This document shows, piece after piece, positions 18,118 through 31,445 of a stretch of 32,800 nucleotides of DNA. This DNA is from an uncultured Chloroflexota bacterium. Its GTDB lineage: Bacteria; Chloroflexota; Chloroflexia; Thermomicrobiales; CFX8. The first letter of the stretch is position 1. Every line of letters starts with the position of its first letter. The notes under the pieces are model-generated. The model saw only the letters and a program-made list of their open reading frames with translations. It had not been told where the DNA came from and ran no database searches. Location: the NCBI GenBank assembly GCA_937870985.1, contig CALMXF010000276.1, forward strand, positions 1 through 32,800, written 5' to 3'. The position numbers were made by a program, and so were the translations under genes.

Positions 18118-18191
18118 TCTGTTGATAGGCGGCCATCGGAGCTGACGCGACGTTGGCCGGGGTACTCATGCTCGAGGGAGGAGAAGTGGAC

Positions 18192-21100
18192 GTGGATGCA
18201 TCGATGCCAGGCTCGATGACGTGGCGTCTGGTCGGGCCGTTCCGCGGTGGGCGCGTTGTCGCAGTCGCCGGCCACCCGACGGAAGTTGGCACGTTCTATT
18301 TCGGCGCGTGTGCTGGCGGTGTCTGGAAGACGACGAATGCCGGCGATTACTGGGAGAACATCTCCGACGGGTACTTCAACACCGCCGCCGTTGGCGCGAT
18401 TGCCGTTGCGCCGTCCGACCCGAATGTCATCTATGTTGGCATGGGGGAGACGAGCATCCGCGGTGATGTCTCGCACGGCGACGGTGTCTACAGATCGACC
18501 GACGGTGGGCAGACCTGGCGACATGTCGGCCTTCCGGAGACCCAGTCGATTTCGACGATCCGCGTCCATCCGACCGATCCGGATCTGGTCTACGTCGCCG
18601 CGTTCGGGCATGTATGGGGGCCGAATCCGGAGCGGGGTGTCTACCGCTCTCGCGACGGTGGATCGTCGTGGACACAGGTGCTTCACACGAGCGATGGCGC
18701 GGGTGCTATCGACCTGGCGATGGATCCGAACAACCCTCGCGTCCTCTACGCGGCGATGTGGGACGCTCAGCGTTACCCCCATGCCCTACGCTCTGGTGGC
18801 CCGAATAGCGGCATCTTCAAGACGACCGACGGTGGCGATACCTGGCAGGAGTTGACACGTAACCCGGGCCTGCCGACAGGTGTGCTGGGCAAGATCGGAA
18901 TCGCCGCGTCGGCGAAGCCCGGCCGCGTCTGGGCATTGGTCGAGTCGGAAGATGGAGCGCTATTCCGCTCCGACGATGGTGGCGCGAACTGGCAGCGCGT
19001 CTGTGATCAGGGCGACCTGCGTCGCCGTGCCTGGTACTACACGCATATCGTCGCTGACCCGCAGGATGGCGACACGGTCTATATCCTCAATCTGAAGTTC
19101 TGGAAGTCGATCGACGGCGGAAAGACATTCACCGCGATCCCGACCCAGCATGGTGACAACCAGGATCTGTGGATCGACCCGGCGGATCCGCGCCGGATGA
19201 TCGAGGGCAACGACGGCGGCGCGAACGTGTCGTTCAACGGCGGCGCGACATGGTCGACGATCTACAACCAGCCGACCGGGCAGTTCTATCACGTGACTAC
19301 CGACGATCGGACACCGTACCGACTGTACGGATCCCAGCAGGACAACACGGCCTTCTCGCTCCCCAGCTCGTCGCTACGCGGCGCAATAACCGCCGCGGAG
19401 TACTTCGAGCCAGGCGGCGGCGAGTCCGGCTATATCGCGATCAAGCCGGATGACAACAACATCGTCTACGGTGGCGCGATCGGGTCGGGCGCTGGCCACG
19501 GCCGGCTACTGCGCTTCGATCAGCGGACGAACGAGATTCGGATCGTTACCGTCTGGCCGGAAGTCCACGGAATGGGCCGCGGCGCGGAGGCGCTGAAGTA
19601 CCGTTTCCAGTGGACGTTTCCCATCTCATTCTCTCCGCACGATCCGAATACGCTCTATGTGACCTCGAATGTCGTCCACCGCACGCGCGACGAAGGCATG
19701 AGCTGGGAGGTCATCTCCCCCGACCTGTCCCATAACGACCCGGAGACGCTGAAACCCTCCGGTGGACCGATCACCCGCGACAACACCGGCGCGGAGGCAT
19801 ACGGCACGATCTTCGCGTTCTTCGAATCGCCGCATGAGCCGGGTGTCTTCTGGGCCGGCTCGGACGATGGCCGGCTGCACATCTCTCGCGATGGCGGCGA
19901 GTCATGGGACGAGGTTTCGATCCCGACAAGCCAACTCCCCGATCGCCCGATGATCTCGGTGATGGAGCCATCGCCACACGACCGATCGACGGTCTATGTC
20001 GCCGCGACACGATACAAGCACGATGACTTCGCGCCGTATCTGTTCAAGACAGCCGACGACGGCAAGACCTGGACGAAGATCACGACCGGCATCCCTGACG
20101 GTGAGTTCACCCGTGTGATTCGCGAAGATCCGAATCGCATGGGCCTGCTCTACGCCGGGACCGAAACCGGTGTGTATGTCTCGTTCGACGATGGCGCGAG
20201 CTGGCAGCGATTCCAGTCGAATCTGCCGGTTGTGCCGGTCTACGATCTGATGATCAAGGGGACTGATCTCCTCGCGGCGACGCATGGGCGCTCGTTCTGG
20301 ATCCTCGACGATCTATCACCGTTACACCAGATGGACGCTGCGACTGCTGACGAGAAGGTCGTCCTGTTTGCTCCTCGAACGGCGAAGCGGATCAAGGTCT
20401 ACGGTCGTCTCGGCGATCCGTCGGCAGATGCCTACAGCTACGGGCGAGCCGGCGGTATGCCGATGACGACGCGACAACGGCCAGGGGCTGGTGGCGGCGT
20501 CGAAACTGAGTATGTTGACGCCGGCAAGAACCCTCCGGACGGCGCGATCATCCACTACTGGTTGAAGGATGCGTCGAAAACCGCCACGTTGACAATTAAG
20601 GACGCCGACGGTCAGACGATTCGGACGTTTGCCAGTGATGAACCAGGTTCCGGCGCGTCTCGACTGGTCCCCTCAGCCGGGATGAACAAGTTCGTCTGGG
20701 ATCTTCGCATTCCGCCCGCGAAGGCGATCTCGGGGATCGATTCGTCATTCACGTCTGGTATTCAGCCCGATGCGCTTCTGGGGCCCGTCGTCGTGCCCGG
20801 CCAGTACTCGGTCGAGCTGGACGTTGATGGGACCACGCGCCAGCAGGTGCTTCTCATTGAAGCCGATCCACGGGTCAGTGGCAATCAGCAGGATCTCGAA
20901 GCGCAATATGATCTCCTGTTGAAGATCCGGGACAAGCTTGCCGAGACCCATGCGGCAATCGACCGAATTCACACGATTCGAACGCAGGTCCGTGACTGGC
21001 TGACGCGGATCGATGATGAGACCGTCACGAACGCTGGCAGGGCGTTGCTTGACAAGCTCGCGGGGGTCGAAGAGACGCTGGCGCAGCCGAAGGCGAGTGA

Positions 21101-21323
21101 TCCGCGCCAGTTTCCCAGCGGCCTCAACGACAAGCTCGCCGCGTTGCCGGGGATGATCTCCAACTCCGATACGCGCCCACCGAAGCAGTACTACGAGGTG
21201 TTCGACAAGGTCTCGGGAGAGGTCGATCAGCAACGAGCAGCGCTCGATGGGATCGTCGACGCGGAGGTCCGGGCGTTCAACGCCTTGATCTCCGGCATGC
21301 AGACCGACGCCGTGATTCTGTAG
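18192..21323 (+). CDS. BNR/VPS10 (sortilin-like) repeat protein, first paralogue
   Basis: This 1,043-aa protein is a beta-propeller of the BNR/Asp-box type, often annotated as glycosyl hydrolase or sortilin-like. About ten Asp-box motifs (SxDxGxTW) are visible, for example STDGGQTW, SRDGGSSW, TTDGGDTW, SDDGGANW and SRDGGESW, spread over about residues 80-690. The family's opening WRLVGPFRGGRVVAV is present. After ILDDLSPLHQM comes a beta-sandwich-like region, then a helical tail (LLLKIRDKLAETHAAIDRI). There is no signal peptide, although homologues are usually exported. The GTG at 18192 is set by GGAGGAG eight bases upstream; the ATG at 18168 and TTG at 18153 are alternatives. No catalytic glycosidase residues can be assigned, so a binding or scaffold role is equally possible. 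A close paralogue follows in tandem. Confidence 0.85.
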   Translation: MDASMPGSMTWRLVGPFRGGRVVAVAGHPTEVGTFYFGACAGGVWKTTNAGDYWENISDGYFNTAAVGAIAVAPSDPNVIYVGMGETSIRGDVSHGDGVYRSTDGGQTWRHVGLPETQSISTIRVHPTDPDLVYVAAFGHVWGPNPERGVYRSRDGGSSWTQVLHTSDGAGAIDLAMDPNNPRVLYAAMWDAQRYPHALRSGGPNSGIFKTTDGGDTWQELTRNPGLPTGVLGKIGIAASAKPGRVWALVESEDGALFRSDDGGANWQRVCDQGDLRRRAWYYTHIVADPQDGDTVYILNLKFWKSIDGGKTFTAIPTQHGDNQDLWIDPADPRRMIEGNDGGANVSFNGGATWSTIYNQPTGQFYHVTTDDRTPYRLYGSQQDNTAFSLPSSSLRGAITAAEYFEPGGGESGYIAIKPDDNNIVYGGAIGSGAGHGRLLRFDQRTNEIRIVTVWPEVHGMGRGAEALKYRFQWTFPISFSPHDPNTLYVTSNVVHRTRDEGMSWEVISPDLSHNDPETLKPSGGPITRDNTGAEAYGTIFAFFESPHEPGVFWAGSDDGRLHISRDGGESWDEVSIPTSQLPDRPMISVMEPSPHDRSTVYVAATRYKHDDFAPYLFKTADDGKTWTKITTGIPDGEFTRVIREDPNRMGLLYAGTETGVYVSFDDGASWQRFQSNLPVVPVYDLMIKGTDLLAATHGRSFWILDDLSPLHQMDAATADEKVVLFAPRTAKRIKVYGRLGDPSADAYSYGRAGGMPMTTRQRPGAGGGVETEYVDAGKNPPDGAIIHYWLKDASKTATLTIKDADGQTIRTFASDEPGSGASRLVPSAGMNKFVWDLRIPPAKAISGIDSSFTSGIQPDALLGPVVVPGQYSVELDVDGTTRQQVLLIEADPRVSGNQQDLEAQYDLLLKIRDKLAETHAAIDRIHTIRTQVRDWLTRIDDETVTNAGRALLDKLAGVEETLAQPKASDPRQFPSGLNDKLAALPGMISNSDTRPPKQYYEVFDKVSGEVDQQRAALDGIVDAEVRAFNALISGMQTDAVIL

Positions 21324-21451
21324 GGTTGAGGCCGCCGGGCTGCTGAACGCGGTCAGGTGGGCAGCCTGGCGATTGTATTGCGAACGACGCCAACTGAGAG
21401 CGAACCACTGGGGCTCGTTCGATGCTGGTGGCTGAACTAGGAGGCATGGGA

Positions 21452-24400
21452 ATGACTGCAGGAGCCACGTCCGCGAAGGATGTGAGCGGGAGCCTGTTGG
21501 GTTCACTGGATTGGCGGCTCATCGGGCCGTTCCGCGGTGGGCGCGTCGTCGCTGTCACCGGAGTTGTGTCGGATCGGGAGACGTACTATTTCGGCGCAGT
21601 CGCTGGCGGGGTCTGGAAGACGACTGACGGTGGCGTTGTCTGGCGCAACGTGTCTGACGGCCAGTTCAACACGGGGGCTGTCGGCGCGATTGCCGTCTCG
21701 GTATCGGACCCGAACGTCATCTACGCCGGCACCGGAGAGACGAGCATTCGTGGCGACGTCTCGCACGGAGATGGCGTTTACAAATCCACCGATGGCGGCA
21801 AGACCTGGGCGAACGTTGGCCTGTCCGACACCCGCCACATCGGCCGCATCCGCATTCACCCGACGAACCCGGATGTCGTCTACGTCGCGGCGCTGGGCCA
21901 CACCTGGGGGCAGAATGAGGAGCGCGGCGTCTTCCGCACGACCGACGGTGGGAAGAGCTGGCAGAAGGTGCTCTACAAGAGCGACCGAGCTGGTTCGCAC
22001 GACCTCTGGCTGGATCCGTCTAACCCGCGCGTTCTCTATGCCGCGATCTGGCAAGCGCAGCGCTTCCCGAACGCGCTGTCGTCTGGCGGCGAGGATTCGG
22101 GCATCTGGAAGTCCGTCGATGGCGGCGATACCTGGGTCGAGCTGACGCGCAAGCCGGGCCTGCCAACCGACGCCGTGCTGGGCAAGATCGGCATTGCCGG
22201 GTCGCCAGCGCAGCCGGACCGCGTCTGGGCGTTGATTGAGGCGGTCAACGGTGGCCTGTTCCGCTCGGACGATGGTGGCGAGACCTGGGAGAAGGTCAAC
22301 ACCGAGGCGAAGCTGCGAACGCGTGCGTGGTACTACATGCACATGATCCCGGATCCGCGCGACCCGAACACCGTCTATGTGTTGAACTACAATTTCTGGA
22401 AGTCGATCGACGGCGGGAAGACGTTCACCGAGATCCCCTCTCGCCACGGCGACGAGCAGGACCTCTGGATCGACCCTGACGACACGCAACGGATGATCAA
22501 GGGCGACGACGGCGGCGGTTGTGTCACCTATAACGGCGGCCGGAGCTGGTCGTCGATCATGAATCAGCCGACGGCGCAGCTCTATCACGTCACCACTGAC
22601 AATGCCTATCCGTTCCGGATCTACGCCTCGCAGCAGGACAACTCGGCGGTGAGCATTCCGAGCGCGACGGTCAATGGGACGATCCACGAGCGAGACTCGT
22701 ATACGCCCGGCGGCGGCGAGTCCGGCTATATCGCTCTGAAGCCGAGCGACCCTGACATCATCGTCGCGGGCGGCATCGGATCGGGAAACTTCAATGGCCG
22801 CCTCATCAAGTACAACCACCGCACCGGCCAGTGGAAGAACATCACCGTCTGGCCAGACCTGGCCGGCATGGGGTCGGGCGCTGGGAGCCTGAAGTACCGC
22901 TTCCAGTGGACCTACCCGATCTTCTACTCGCGTCACGAAGTGGACACACTCTATGTCGCCGGCAACCGGATCTTCCGCTCGACCGACGACGGAATGACCT
23001 GGGAGATCGTTTCCGACGACATCACCCGCAACGACCCCTCGAAGTTGGGACCGTCCGGCGGGCCGATCACGAAAGACAACACCGGCGCCGAGGCGTACTG
23101 CACGATCTTCGCGCTGGCCGAGTCCCCTCAGGAGCCCAACACGCTATGGGCCGGCACCGACGATGGGTTGGTCAAGATCAGCAAGGATCGCGGCAAGACC
23201 TGGGAGGACATCACCCCGCCGGCCCTGCCCGAGTGGGCGCTGATCTCGATCATCGACCCGTCCGAGCACCACGCTGGGACCGCCTACGTCGCCGCGACAC
23301 GCTACAAGTCGGACGATACGACGCCGTATCTGTTCAAGACCAGCGACTACGGCAAGACCTGGACGACGATCACCAACGGCATTCCATCCACCGATTTCAC
23401 CCGCACGATCCGCGAGGACAAGGCCCAGCAAGGGCTGCTGTATGCCGGAACCGAAACAGGCGCCTACGTCTCATTCGATGACGGCGCAAACTGGCAGCGT
23501 CTGGGTGGCAACTTCCCGGTCGCGCCGGTTTATGACCTCATCATCAAGGGGCACAGCCTCGTGGTCGCGACTCACGGCCGCTCGATCTGGATGCTCGACG
23601 ACTTGACGCCTCTGCGCCAGATGGCTTCTGGACGAACCGGCAATGGCGTGACGCTCTTCGAGCTGCCGTCGAAGGTTCGCTTCAATCCTGTCATCGGGTT
23701 CGGTGGATCGCCCCAGAAGGGGTACGTTTCCTACCACGCGGCGAGCACCAGCCACGTGTCCTACGAACAGGTCGAGCAACCCGACGGCACGATGAAGAAT
23801 GTCTACGTCGACGCTGCCGCCAACCCATACGACGGGGTGATCGTCTCCTACTACCTGCCCGAAGCGGCAAAGCAGTCTGCGGATCTTGCCGTTGTCGACA
23901 ACCAGGGGAATACCGTTCGGTCATTCACCACGAAGGTGGCCGACGCCTCGTCAGAAGAGAGCGCTGCCAGTGGCCAGAAGGTGCCGGCTGCCGCGGGGGT
24001 GAATCGTTTCCATTGGGATATGCGCTACGAGCCGGCGGCGACGCTCGAGGGTCAGGAACTCGCCGATTGGGATAAGCCAGTCGGGCCGAAGGCGCTGCCC
24101 GGCAGCTATACCGTGCGGCTGACGATCGATGGCGCGACGCACGAGCAGCCGCTGGAGATCGTCCCCGACCCACGTCTGGATACCCCGGCCGAGGCGCTTC
24201 AGGAGCAGCTCGATCTACTGCTGAAGATCCGCGACCGGCTGAGCGATACGAACCGTGCAGTCTCGCGCGTGCGGAAGGTTCGCACGCAGGTCGAGGACTG
24301 GGAGAAGCGCGTCAAGGACAGCGACGCGGCTGAGTCGGTGCAGGCCGCCGGCAAGGACGCGCGCGAGGCCCTGACCGCGATCGAGACCGAGCTGGTCGAC

Positions 24401-24634
24401 ACGACCACTGATAGTCCGTTGATGGCGCCATCCCGGCTCTTCGAGAAGCTGAACGCCCTCACCGAGTTCGTCTCTCTCGCCGAGGGTGCGCCGGCGAAGC
24501 AGGGCTACGAGGTCTTCGACGAGCTTTCGACGCGCCTCGACGACCTTCTCGAGACGCTCGACGGCGTCATCAGCAGCAAGGTCCGCGTATTCAACGAAGC
24601 GATCTCGGCTGCCAAGCTCCCGCCGGTCGGATAG
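21452..24634 (+). CDS. BNR/VPS10 (sortilin-like) repeat protein, second paralogue
   Basis: This 1,060-aa protein has the same architecture as its upstream neighbour and is closely similar over its whole length, for example VGAIAVSVSDPNVIYAGTGE and ETSIRGDVSHGDGVYKSTDG against near-identical stretches there. About eleven Asp-box motifs are present (STDGGKTW, TTDGGKSW, SVDGGDTW, SDDGGETW, STDDGMTW, SKDRGKTW and others). The tail again ends in a helical segment (LLLKIRDRLSDTNRAVSRV). The ATG at 21452 lies seven bases after AGGAGG; an ATG two codons earlier is too close. No signal peptide is seen. The 128-base gap to the first gene and the shared strand suggest a duplicated, co-regulated pair. 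A strong hairpin follows the stop. Substrate or partner unknown. Confidence 0.86.
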   Translation: MTAGATSAKDVSGSLLGSLDWRLIGPFRGGRVVAVTGVVSDRETYYFGAVAGGVWKTTDGGVVWRNVSDGQFNTGAVGAIAVSVSDPNVIYAGTGETSIRGDVSHGDGVYKSTDGGKTWANVGLSDTRHIGRIRIHPTNPDVVYVAALGHTWGQNEERGVFRTTDGGKSWQKVLYKSDRAGSHDLWLDPSNPRVLYAAIWQAQRFPNALSSGGEDSGIWKSVDGGDTWVELTRKPGLPTDAVLGKIGIAGSPAQPDRVWALIEAVNGGLFRSDDGGETWEKVNTEAKLRTRAWYYMHMIPDPRDPNTVYVLNYNFWKSIDGGKTFTEIPSRHGDEQDLWIDPDDTQRMIKGDDGGGCVTYNGGRSWSSIMNQPTAQLYHVTTDNAYPFRIYASQQDNSAVSIPSATVNGTIHERDSYTPGGGESGYIALKPSDPDIIVAGGIGSGNFNGRLIKYNHRTGQWKNITVWPDLAGMGSGAGSLKYRFQWTYPIFYSRHEVDTLYVAGNRIFRSTDDGMTWEIVSDDITRNDPSKLGPSGGPITKDNTGAEAYCTIFALAESPQEPNTLWAGTDDGLVKISKDRGKTWEDITPPALPEWALISIIDPSEHHAGTAYVAATRYKSDDTTPYLFKTSDYGKTWTTITNGIPSTDFTRTIREDKAQQGLLYAGTETGAYVSFDDGANWQRLGGNFPVAPVYDLIIKGHSLVVATHGRSIWMLDDLTPLRQMASGRTGNGVTLFELPSKVRFNPVIGFGGSPQKGYVSYHAASTSHVSYEQVEQPDGTMKNVYVDAAANPYDGVIVSYYLPEAAKQSADLAVVDNQGNTVRSFTTKVADASSEESAASGQKVPAAAGVNRFHWDMRYEPAATLEGQELADWDKPVGPKALPGSYTVRLTIDGATHEQPLEIVPDPRLDTPAEALQEQLDLLLKIRDRLSDTNRAVSRVRKVRTQVEDWEKRVKDSDAAESVQAAGKDAREALTAIETELVDTTTDSPLMAPSRLFEKLNALTEFVSLAEGAPAKQGYEVFDELSTRLDDLLETLDGVISSKVRVFNEAISAAKLPPVG

Positions 24635-28113: not shown

Positions 28114-29511
28114 TCAACCCATGACTGGCACGACCTCCGGTGGTCGCTTGCCCTGCCATGGTCCATCACGCTCTACGACTCTCGCCGCCCGGAAAACGAG
28201 CGATTCCAGCCACGGCCGAGCCGCGATCTGGATAGCCACTGGTAGATCGCCCTCGCCGAGGCCGACCGGCACGACCATCGCCGGCCAGCCCAGCGCATTG
28301 AACGGCCCGGTGAAGCGTGTGTTGCTCTGGACGACGCCGAGCGGCGGTGCTTCATGCGGCATGCCGGGCGTTACCAACAGATCCACGCCGCTCACCCGCT
28401 CCACGATCCGCGAGCGAAGAATCGTGCGGGCCTGTTCGACCCGCACGAACGCGGTCGGCGAGTAGGCGTAGGCAACCAGCATCCGGTCGCGGACGAAATC
28501 GTCAAGGTCGCCGAGGCGATGTCGAAGGTAGTGCTCATAAGCGGCCGCCGCTTCGATCGTCACAATCGTCCCGTACAGCGCGGACAGATCAGCGAGCTCG
28601 GGGATCGCAATCTCGACAATGTCGGCGCCAGCTGCCGCCAGCGCAGCGACGCCATTGCTCACGCCCTGGACGACGGCCGGCGTCCCCAGTGAGCCCATCC
28701 CGTCGTCTGTCAGCACGCCGATACGAAGTCGCGCAATCCCACGCTCGACGGCTGCCGGGTAGTCGTCAACTGGCACTCTGCGCGTGCGCGGGTCGCCCGG
28801 GTCGAATCCGGCCAGGATCTTGAGCATTGTCGCTGCGTCCGCGACGCTCCGCGTCATCGGGCCGACATGGTCCAGCGACCACGACAATGTTGCTGTGCCG
28901 CGTCCACTCACTCGCCCGAACGTCGGCTTGATCCCGGTGATGCCGCAAAGCGTCGAGGGCATGCGGATCGAGCCGCCGGTGTCCGAGCCGATTGCGCCGA
29001 GCACCAGTCCGGTCGCGACGGCCGCGCCAGAGCCGCTGCTGGATCCACCAGCATCGTGCGAGTAGTCCCACGGGTTCGGCACCGGGCCGTAGTGGGAGTT
29101 GTTCGAGCCTGGCGAGAACGCGAACTCGGGCATGCTCGTCTTGCCGACGATCACTGCGCCCGCTTCATCGAGCAGCCGCACGACTTCGCTATCCTCGGCG
29201 GCGATCGCGTCGGCCAGAACCTTCGAGCCGGCGGGTGTTGTCTCGCCGCGCATGTCTGCCAGGTCTTTGATCGCGATCGGGATGCCGTGCAACGGGCCGC
29301 GATAATTCCCACGTCGGATTTCGTCGGCTGCCGTCCGCGCCTGCGCGAGCGCGCGATCAGGCGTGGTTGTCCGAAACGCGTTGAGGATGGGATTCGCTGC
29401 CCCGATCCTCGCGAGCGAGAGCTCGGCCAACTCGACGGGAGAGATTTCGCCCGAGCGGATGAGCGGCCCGACTTCGGCGATCGACCGATGAAGGATCGAC
29501 GCATCAGCCAT
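28114..29511 (-). CDS. Amidase (amidase signature family)
   Basis: This complete 465-aa amidase has the Ser-cisSer-Lys triad with exact GatA spacing: K82 (AIKDLADMRG), S157 in AGGSSSGSGAAVA and nucleophile S181 in SDTGGSIRMPS. It would hydrolyse an amide and release ammonia. The ATG start lies inside the end of the preceding small gene, overlapping it by eight bases, so translation is coupled. That small helical protein resembles the GatC/AtzG accessory subunits that pair with amidases such as AtzE. No GatB is present, so tRNA amidation is unlikely as the main role. It is the last gene of a four-gene unit with a methyltransferase and a sulfurtransferase. The substrate is unknown. Confidence 0.92.
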   Translation of the reverse strand: MADASILHRSIAEVGPLIRSGEISPVELAELSLARIGAANPILNAFRTTTPDRALAQARTAADEIRRGNYRGPLHGIPIAIKDLADMRGETTPAGSKVLADAIAAEDSEVVRLLDEAGAVIVGKTSMPEFAFSPGSNNSHYGPVPNPWDYSHDAGGSSSGSGAAVATGLVLGAIGSDTGGSIRMPSTLCGITGIKPTFGRVSGRGTATLSWSLDHVGPMTRSVADAATMLKILAGFDPGDPRTRRVPVDDYPAAVERGIARLRIGVLTDDGMGSLGTPAVVQGVSNGVAALAAAGADIVEIAIPELADLSALYGTIVTIEAAAAYEHYLRHRLGDLDDFVRDRMLVAYAYSPTAFVRVEQARTILRSRIVERVSGVDLLVTPGMPHEAPPLGVVQSNTRFTGPFNALGWPAMVVPVGLGEGDLPVAIQIAARPWLESLVFRAARVVERDGPWQGKRPPEVVPVMG

Positions 29512-29728
29512 GGTGCGTCTCCCCCGTCGTCGTTGTCACGAGGTCCAGATAGTCGGGTATCTCGACTCCGGTGACGATGCGATCGATCATCTCCTCGACG
29601 GTCAGTGCGCGGCTGAGAAAGCCTCGCTCGGCGGTTCGCTCGATATCCTCGTCGGAGAGCTGTATGCCGGCCGCACGGGTTGCGACCTTCCAGCGCTCGA
29701 TCATTGCTCGTTCACGCTCGCTTGCCAT
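29504..29728 (-). CDS. Small AtzG/GatC-like amidase partner
   Basis: This 74-aa soluble, mostly helical protein opens MASERERAMIERWKVATRAA and contains LSDEDIERTAERGFLSRALT near residues 23-42, with an acidic, hydrophobic-patterned C-terminus. Size, helical character and its coupled position directly before an amidase match the small accessory subunits (GatC, AtzG and DUF4089-type proteins) that wrap around amidases. Sequence similarity to any one of them is not strong by eye, so the assignment rests mainly on context. Its ATG overlaps the final stop of the rhodanese frame as TGATG, and GGAGGTG lies just upstream; its own stop overlaps the amidase ATG. Confidence 0.65.
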   Translation of the reverse strand: MASERERAMIERWKVATRAAGIQLSDEDIERTAERGFLSRALTVEEMIDRIVTGVEIPDYLDLVTTTTGETHHG

Positions 29729-30585
29729 CACACCTCCGTGTTGTCGGGCCGGGCTATCGGGGTGTCGTCCCGGTTCCCCCACTCGCCGAACGACCGGTCG
29801 TAGGTTGCGATCTTCTCATACCCAAGCAGGGCGAGCACGTAGACTCCGTGCGCCGCACGGATGCCACTTTGTCAATAGGGGACGACTGCCTTGCCGCGCG
29901 TGATCCCATTCGATTCCAGAAGCGTGGCAATCTCCAGCGCGGGCTTGAATCGCGCCGACGCTTCCCAGTCGACGAAATGCTTCCACTCAAGGTGCACCGC
30001 ACCCGGGATGTACCCTTCGCGCTGATTCCGAACGGTTTCCGGAGTGCCGGCCCATTCCAGATCGGTGCGCATATCGAGCGTGGCGAAATCGTCATTACCT
30101 AGGCGCGGCAGGATCACGTCACAGTCGGCGATACGGTCTCCGACCGGTTGCGCCACGAAATCTCCTGCCACCGGCTCACCCCACGCATGCTCGACCGGGT
30201 TGCCCTCGGCGGCCCACGATATCCAGCCGCCATTCAGCAGCGCGGCATTCTCGAAGCCGTAGTACCAGAGCACCCACCAACAGCGCGCGGCCAGTACGCC
30301 GCCTTGCGAGTCGTAGCAGACGACTCTCCGGCCATCGCCAACACCAAGGCCGCCAAGGATCATGGTCGCCTGATCCGGAGGAAGGACACCGACGTTGGTG
30401 TGAATATCACGCAGGTAGGGGTGGATCGGCAGCGGAACAGCGCCGGGGATGTGAGGCCGAACGGCCCGCACATCGGCGTCGTCACAGTCGATGATCAGGA
30501 GATCGGTGTCTCCCAGATGTGCCGCCAGCCAGGCGGGCTCGACGATCAGATCGGGACATGGATATTGCCGGGGGGGATGGGTCAC
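29728..30585 (-). CDS. Rhodanese-family sulfurtransferase with in-frame TGA (probable selenocysteine 238)
   Basis: This two-domain thiosulfate/3-mercaptopyruvate-type sulfurtransferase is 285 aa if the TGA at 29872-29874 is read through. Domain 1 (about residues 12-125) has the inactive-site segment VVCYDSQGGVLAARCWWVLW and the LLNGGWISW turn. Domain 2 has EGYIPGAVHLEWKHFVDWE, then KAVVPY, the TGA (codon 238), and QSGIRAAHGVYVLALLGYEK followed by FGEWGNRDD. The TGA falls exactly on the catalytic cysteine of the CxxGxR loop. A conventional annotation stops there and loses the active site. The frame continues 47 codons to a TGA that overlaps the next gene's ATG (TGATG). A SECIS-like hairpin follows codon 238. 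The GTG start has GGAGGT six bases upstream. It lies 26 bases after the methyltransferase gene. A recent nonsense mutation is the alternative. Confidence 0.82.
29839..29874 (-). promoter_or_regulatory. UGA codon plus bacterial SECIS-like hairpin
   Basis: Reading the minus strand, the UGA (29874-29872) is followed by CAAA. A four-base lower stem then pairs 29867-29864 (GUGG) with 29842-29839 (CUAC, one G-U). After a two-by-two internal loop comes a seven-base perfect upper stem: UCCGUGC (29861-29855) with GCACGGA (29851-29845). The apical loop is GGC (29854-29852), so a guanine opens it, and it begins 17 bases after the UGA. E. coli fdhF has its loop about 18 bases after the UGA with GG at the loop start. 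The structure lies wholly within conserved rhodanese codons. Confidence 0.75.
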
Positions 30586-30611: not shown

Positions 30612-31445
30612 TCAGCGAACCCGGGTGACGACAGTGACGACGTGTGGGATTGCGATCAGAAACCGATGCTGGGCGATAGCGCGTTCGACGGCTCGCTCCC
30701 AGCGTTTGACCGTGCTGCGATCGACTTGCCGGCCGGCGGCTGCGTGCTCCGCCCAGACAGATGTGATCCCCTGCACGTTAGGCGCGTTCGGATCCTCGAA
30801 CACCAGCAGGTGACCGTGCACCCTCTCGACGTACAGCCCCACCTGAATGCACGCGGATGGCGTCTCGCGCGCCGCCAGTGGGGAGGCGTAGACCGACGCC
30901 GCTGACGCCAGAACGCGTGATGTGATGGTGGGATCTGGGCCGGCGGCGAACGCGCTGTACGGGTCGTAATCGGCAAACACCGCTCGGCCACCGATCGTCA
31001 ACACACGGGAGATTTCGGTCAGCACACGTGTGATCGGGGCGACGTGCATCAGCAGACGCTCCGCAAGGACGGCATCGAACGTGGAGTCGGGATACGGCAA
31101 CGTGTGGCAGTCGGCAGTGACGAACCGCGTCTGATTCAGCCCAAGCATCCTCGAACGTCGTGTTGCGATGTCGATGAAGTGGGGGTTGAGGTCGAGGCCA
31201 TGGATCTCGCCTTCTGGCCCGACGCGATCGGCAATGCCCTCCAGCATCATGCCGGGGCCGCAGCCGATCTCGAGCGCAACGGCGCCCGGATAGAGGTGGG
31301 CTTCGTCGAGAACAGTGTCGCGGAGTGCCTTGAAGCGTTGGTCATCCAGTGATTCGAGGAGGCTGGCAGCAATCGGGTTGGTTTGCGCCGCGCTCCCGAG
31401 TGCCAACTGCTCGTATAGATCGTTTTGCCAGTGCTCCTGCGCCAC
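30612..31445 (-). CDS. Class I SAM-dependent methyltransferase
   Basis: This 277-aa protein has the UbiE/methyltransferase-11 type Rossmann fold. The SAM-binding motif I is VALEIGCGPGMMLEGIADRV (about residues 55-74), the acidic motif II is IHGLDLNPHF, motif III is ADCHTLPYPDSTFDAVLAER, and motif IV region is LLMHVAPITRVLTEISRVL. The C-terminal third (about 180-277) is less conserved and probably binds the acceptor, which cannot be identified. The GTG start has AAGGGA about eight bases upstream. It is the first gene of the minus-strand unit that continues with the rhodanese 26 bases later, the small AtzG-like protein and the amidase. Methylation of a sulfur or selenium compound would fit its neighbour but is only inference. 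Confidence 0.87.
   Translation of the reverse strand: MAQEHWQNDLYEQLALGSAAQTNPIAASLLESLDDQRFKALRDTVLDEAHLYPGAVALEIGCGPGMMLEGIADRVGPEGEIHGLDLNPHFIDIATRRSRMLGLNQTRFVTADCHTLPYPDSTFDAVLAERLLMHVAPITRVLTEISRVLTIGGRAVFADYDPYSAFAAGPDPTITSRVLASAASVYASPLAARETPSACIQVGLYVERVHGHLLVFEDPNAPNVQGITSVWAEHAAAGRQVDRSTVKRWERAVERAIAQHRFLIAIPHVVTVVTRVR

Follow-up and report, generated by a model that had tools for sequence, protein, structure and literature searches.

Sequence evidence for a probable selenocysteine-containing tandem-domain rhodanese with a conserved candidate SECIS hairpin in a Thermomicrobiales-like Chloroflexota genome

The window, i.e., the whole 32,800-nucleotide stretch of DNA analyzed here, contains a gene for a rhodanese-type sulfurtransferase with an in-frame TGA, together with neighbors in the same orientation (Table 1). 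PF00581 matches the protein in two stretches (89.6 bits), which indicates two rhodanese domains, and the best solved relative, 1e0c/1h4k/1h4m, aligns with it over residues 12-277. The start codon is a GTG at 30585, closely preceded by a GGAGG ribosome-binding site, and the conventional ORF (29872-30585) ends at the TGA (29874-29872) after 237 amino acids, the product that a standard annotation had been expected to give. Past this TGA, the same frame continues for 47 codons (QSGIRAAHGVYVLALLGYEKIATYDRSFGEWGNRDDTPIARPDNTEV) to a final TGA stop (29730-29728), which overlaps, within a TGATG, the start codon of a 74-aa ORF, as the original prediction had described; readthrough of the internal TGA would give a protein of 285 residues. 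The extent proposed for the gene by that prediction, 29728-30585, was right, but the strand had been left unstated and must be specified as minus; a plus-strand reading was rejected, the frame on that strand not giving the rhodanese protein.

Table 1. The rhodanese gene, its predicted selenocysteine signals, and adjacent genes in the window
Feature	Position	Strand	Evidence or remarks
Two-domain rhodanese-type sulfurtransferase gene	29728..30585	-	PF00581, E 2e-25; 1e0c/1h4k/1h4m, E 1.4e-35
In-frame TGA, codon 238, putatively read as selenocysteine	29872..29874	-	Aligns with the C of the 1e0c CQTHHR loop
C-terminal 47 codons past the TGA (FGEWGNRDD motif) and stop	29728..29871	-	Conserved; stop overlaps the next ATG
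Predicted bSECIS hairpin, CCGTG-CGGCG-CACGG, 6 bp, GGC triloop	29846..29860	-	Folding, conservation, bSECIS model
Small ORF, 74 aa	29505..29728	-	Overlaps the rhodanese stop codon at its start and the amidase start at its stop
Amidase-signature enzyme	28114..29511	-	Nearest NCBIfam model AtzE, below its cutoff
Class I SAM methyltransferase, upstream of the rhodanese gene	30612..31445	-	

The overlaps between start and stop codons in the window suggest translational coupling. The SAM methyltransferase and the amidase-signature enzyme flank the rhodanese gene in all five genomes from the window's family, four of which also showed the small ORF (the window and L054, L056, and L057). This ORF has no Pfam or NCBIfam match and is AtzG-like only by its size and position. 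Beyond the family, the neighbors differ, and no pathway common across lineages was found. Elsewhere in the window, on the plus strand, lie a CsoR/FrmR-type metal-sensitive repressor (PF02583; 13710-14063) and two adjacent large proteins of 1056 and 1070 aa with Sortilin-Vps10 and BNR repeats (18153-24634), an apparent tandem duplication.

The loop cysteine of 1e0c with which residue 238 aligns is well established as the catalytic, persulfide-bearing residue of the RhdA family, and the original prediction had placed the TGA at exactly this position, with Cys or TGA expected there in homologs. In a set consisting of 200 relatives, then of named genomes and 400 genomes of the phylum, codon 238 was TGA in 22 distinct genes, TGC or TGT (Cys) in 102, and an Asp codon in one. 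All 22 TGA genes belong to Chloroflexota. The five genomes of the window's family present among the 200 relatives (four genera, the window's own genome included) each have one in-frame TGA, at this same codon, in proteins that are 51-70% identical to that of the window for the four relatives; the order to which the window genome belongs also includes Thermomicrobiaceae- and Sphaerobacter-labeled relatives. The resulting UxxG motif is UQSG in the window and UQ[SGA]G across all TGA members, and the region past the TGA is conserved as protein, with motifs in common with the Cys enzymes. Since five of five family genomes and 22 distinct genes carry the TGA, its presence is not due to chance, in agreement with the original argument against a random mutation, and decay of the frame past the TGA, which the prediction had named as a sign against itself, was not seen in the relatives.

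The selenocysteine (Sec) reading gains further weight from a feature that the original prediction had not considered, a conserved and covarying candidate SECIS hairpin located directly past the TGA. The predicted hairpin begins 11 nt past the UGA, and its apical loop lies 17 nt after the UGA. Published limits for bSECIS elements comprise a loop of 3-9 nt with a G in its first two positions, a stem of 4-16 bp, a spacing of 16-37 nt, and a minimum free energy of at most -7.5, and the rhodanese hairpin falls within all four, with a 3-nt GG-loop, a 6-bp stem, a 17-nt spacing, and an energy below -7.5. The single loop change, from G to U in L196 (GG to GU), is allowed by the bSECIS model. One may also consider that translation genuinely ends at the UGA and that the hairpin has another role, for example in a regulated termination that yields the 237-aa product. 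Bacteria usually decode UGA with incomplete efficiency, and some truncated product would be expected anyway, but conservation of the 47 downstream codons as protein, with motifs that are common to the Cys enzymes, and the fit of the hairpin to the bSECIS model both speak against a true stop, to which we attach hardly any credence.

Codon usage within the hairpin is also constrained. Indeed, codons +5 to +8 after the TGA read CGT-GCG-GCG-CAC in the 22 TGA genes, with the exception of one GCG-to-TCG (Ser) change, while CGT represents only 14.5% of the Arg codons in these genes. For the encoded amino acids, the probability of this codon combination averages about 0.02 per TGA gene, a value that we left unmultiplied because the TGA genes are not independent. 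None of the 36 Cys homologs that encode the RAAH peptide uses this 12-mer, and an intact 5-bp stem is found in 22/22 TGA genes versus 1/102 Cys genes, a contrast that appears to us a stronger point than covariation. Of 19 aligned sequences, four have G-C instead of C-G as the outer pair, a switch that accompanies Ile-to-Val and Gly-to-Ala replacements at the protein level; pairing is kept throughout, but the remaining pairs never vary, so that there is only one covarying position and covariation alone constitutes limited evidence. Compared with synonymous shuffles, the folding energies give modest z-scores (means of -1.13 for Sec genes and -0.08 for Cys genes), and the argument for the hairpin therefore rests on sequence freezing and pairing rather than on energy. 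The frozen codons bear as well on whether the rhodanese gene might be a pseudogene created by a nonsense mutation, or its TGA a misread TGC. The window genome is a draft MAG (447 contigs, 89% completeness), and a single-base change suffices to convert TGC to TGA; nevertheless, 22 distinct genes in independently assembled genomes share the TGA and have intact downstream frames, and the synonymous sites are frozen without a reason for such conservation in a Cys enzyme. We rejected a pseudogene or a sequencing error, both exceedingly improbable, because the TGA is conserved across genera and families and the synonymous sites are conserved with it.

The window genome encodes SelA (526 bits), SelB (339 bits), and SelD (354 bits), all above curated cutoffs, and the three genes are located on contigs other than that of the rhodanese. 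Of the Sec genes that the original prediction proposed to search for, selA, selB, and selD were thus recovered, but selC was not: tRNA-Sec was not found in the window MAG (G000, 89% complete) or in its congener (G001, 96% complete) with the RF01852 covariance model, BLAST with the gene of the sister genera, or two patterns, nor by ARAGORN or Rfam on the selA and selB contigs checked, although SelA, SelB, and Sec genes occur in both genomes. In three sister genera (G002, G003, and G004), tRNA-Sec is present and nearly identical from one to another. Low-scoring RF01852 matches in the window genome (L007, L008, and L009) proved to be tRNA-Ser and tRNA-Leu according to ARAGORN, and the matches to a relaxed anticodon/T-loop pattern were discarded as not tRNA-like by eye. 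The likeliest cause of the absence of selC in both genomes is their incomplete assembly. We consider it unlikely that this genus retains SelA, SelB, and ordinary SECIS hairpins but decodes UGA in the rhodanese and SelD with a tRNA too far from canonical tRNA-Sec to be recognized by covariance models or by BLAST with the tRNA of the sister genera, or with a variant of tRNA-Cys that has a UCA anticodon.

A selC-type tRNA-Cys with an opal anticodon has been described for some Desulfobacterales (PMC7609411), and the rhodanese UGA could in principle be read as cysteine by such a tRNA, in line with canonical tRNA-Sec not having been found in two genomes of the genus. We judge this very improbable, as SelA and SelD are present, SelD itself bears a TGA, and an ordinary tRNA-Sec exists in three sister genera that have the same gene and hairpin. 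The TGA of selD (L052, G000:C257, 55-990, minus strand) lies in the active-site motif LASCAG-TGA-AAK and is followed by a strong predicted hairpin with a GGC loop, as in the rhodanese hairpin; SelD of the window genome is probably a selenoprotein too. Of note, the selB contig contains a match to a T-box leader (L051, G000:C68, 11927-12204, minus strand; 71/93 bits, below the gathering score). Across genomes, SelB exceeds its cutoff in 17/17 of those with the Sec form of the rhodanese versus 13/16 of those with the Cys form, a co-occurrence that fits the Sec reading but is only suggestive.

In a tree of 75 homologs, neither the Sec nor the Cys form is monophyletic, and at least five Sec/Cys exchanges are needed, four of which are forced by well-supported branches. 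The frozen codons are lost in Cys members nested among Sec members (L188, L189, L190, L195, and L106). A Sec rhodanese is also found inside an otherwise Cys clade (L218; G279:C50, 97-906), with a hairpin like that of distant Sec forms, which could reflect a retained ancestral state, transfer, or convergence. Dynamic exchange between Sec and Cys has already been described in bacteria (PMC1794560), and the rhodanese pattern repeats it. The window genome encodes in addition a Cys-type homolog (G000:C35), and the Sec rhodanese is therefore not its sole rhodanese of the tandem-domain type.

Together, the exchange between TGA and Cys, the covarying hairpin, the intact downstream frame, and the presence of SelA, SelB, and SelD support the selenocysteine originally proposed, and, as far as sequence can tell, the rhodanese gene is almost certainly a functional selenoprotein gene. 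We estimate at roughly 93% the probability that it encodes a full-length tandem-domain rhodanese (COG2897/SseA-like) in which UGA-238 would be decoded as Sec by SelB and tRNA-Sec, under the direction of the downstream SECIS hairpin. Rhodaneses are known to work through their active cysteine, on which sulfane sulfur is first bound as a persulfide and from which it is then passed on. With Sec inserted at position 238, as the sequence predicts, a selenolate would by homology stand in place of the catalytic thiolate, and thiosulfate, a persulfide, or a comparable donor could supply it with sulfane sulfur. The sulfur-loaded residue would be a selenenyl-sulfide (E-Se-SH or E-Se-S-R), the sulfur of which would be handed to an acceptor thiol or to a sulfur carrier, and the Sec enzyme may be a faster or less over-oxidizable persulfide carrier than the Cys paralog of the same genome.

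We lean toward such a transferase function, for sulfur (or selenium), over another redox role. A less likely, although not negligible, proposal is that Sec is inserted but that the main task of the protein is selenium handling, as a selenide/selenite carrier that feeds SelD, or peroxide/disulfide redox chemistry. In vitro, Cys rhodaneses bind selenium at a 1:1 ratio, and they have been proposed to contribute to the supply of selenophosphate (PMC9369223); redox functions are assumed for most selenoproteins (PMC9312934). However, the rhodanese gene is unlinked to selD, selA, and selB, which lie on other contigs, many SelB-bearing genomes have the Cys form of the rhodanese, and the surroundings of one Sec gene point to sulfur transfer. 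In this locus (L101, 1898-5502), the Sec rhodanese gene is situated downstream of genes for an Rrf2 regulator, a PALP-family (cysteine-synthase-like) enzyme, and a ThiF-ThiS protein, neighbors that fit the supply of sulfur to a carrier protein and thereby suggest sulfur transfer in that lineage.

What standard annotation would call a truncated gene thus emerges as one for a well-supported putative selenoenzyme. Moreover, the homologs provide a tractable set of close Sec/Cys pairs from a single phylum, the Sec members having retained the hairpin and the Cys members having lost it. Such pairs lend themselves to asking why selenium comes to replace sulfur during the evolution of an enzyme that forms a persulfide, for which selenium offers no obvious benefit.

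Among proteins of solved structure, the closest comparison is with RhdA of Azotobacter vinelandii (1e0c, 1h4k, and 1h4m), a thiosulfate sulfurtransferase that has the same two-domain architecture, that can load selenium, and whose CQTHHR cysteine aligns with the Sec; RhdA differs in that its active residue is Cys, its loop is CQTHHR instead of UQSGIR, and it is no selenoprotein. The tandem rhodanese fold is also that of 3-mercaptopyruvate sulfurtransferase (NF008557/PRK11493), the best NCBIfam match, but the score of 114.8 bits lies below the cutoff of 250, and the loop is not of the CG[S/A]GVT type. Other Sec-containing rhodanese forms, namely, the COG0607 forms, the (seleno)protein of NF041203, and TsoB (NF045694), have in common with the window protein a rhodanese domain with Sec; the window protein scores 24.4 bits against NF041203 (cutoff, 115) and does not match the TsoB model. 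The Sec motifs of forms 1, 3, and 5 of a recent classification differ from UxxG, which form 2 also possesses (PMC13188914).

The novelty of the original prediction needs adjusting, since Sec rhodaneses of COG2897 have been in the literature since 2005, and its surmise that metagenomic surveys might already have put forward such proteins was correct (PMC1088965, PMC2398784). The Sargasso Sea selenoproteome of 2005 included a Sec-containing COG2897 rhodanese among 15 new families, with three sequences and a predicted SECIS element (PMC1088965), and the family was met again in the GOS data in 2008 (PMC2398784). It was later listed in a review, with MQG53192.1, where functions are described as unclear for most such predicted selenoproteins (PMC9312934), and it appears in a 2026 review as "form 4, UxxG," with MCY3690685.1 (PMC13188914). 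In the openly licensed literature, we found neither a biochemical study of a Sec rhodanese of the UxxG COG2897 form nor a report of a Sec rhodanese in Thermomicrobiales-like Chloroflexota. By its described features, the published family, with members MQG53192.1, MCY3690685.1, and AACY01016424, resembles the window rhodanese: in both there are tandem domains, a UGA at the position of the conserved Cys, a UxxG motif (UQSG in the window), a predicted bSECIS element, and widespread Cys homologs. A difference is that the window member comes from a Chloroflexota MAG of a Thermomicrobiales-like order. We conclude that the predicted selenoprotein of the window very probably belongs to the already known Sec rhodaneses of COG2897, of which it is a well-supported and unusually well-documented addition.
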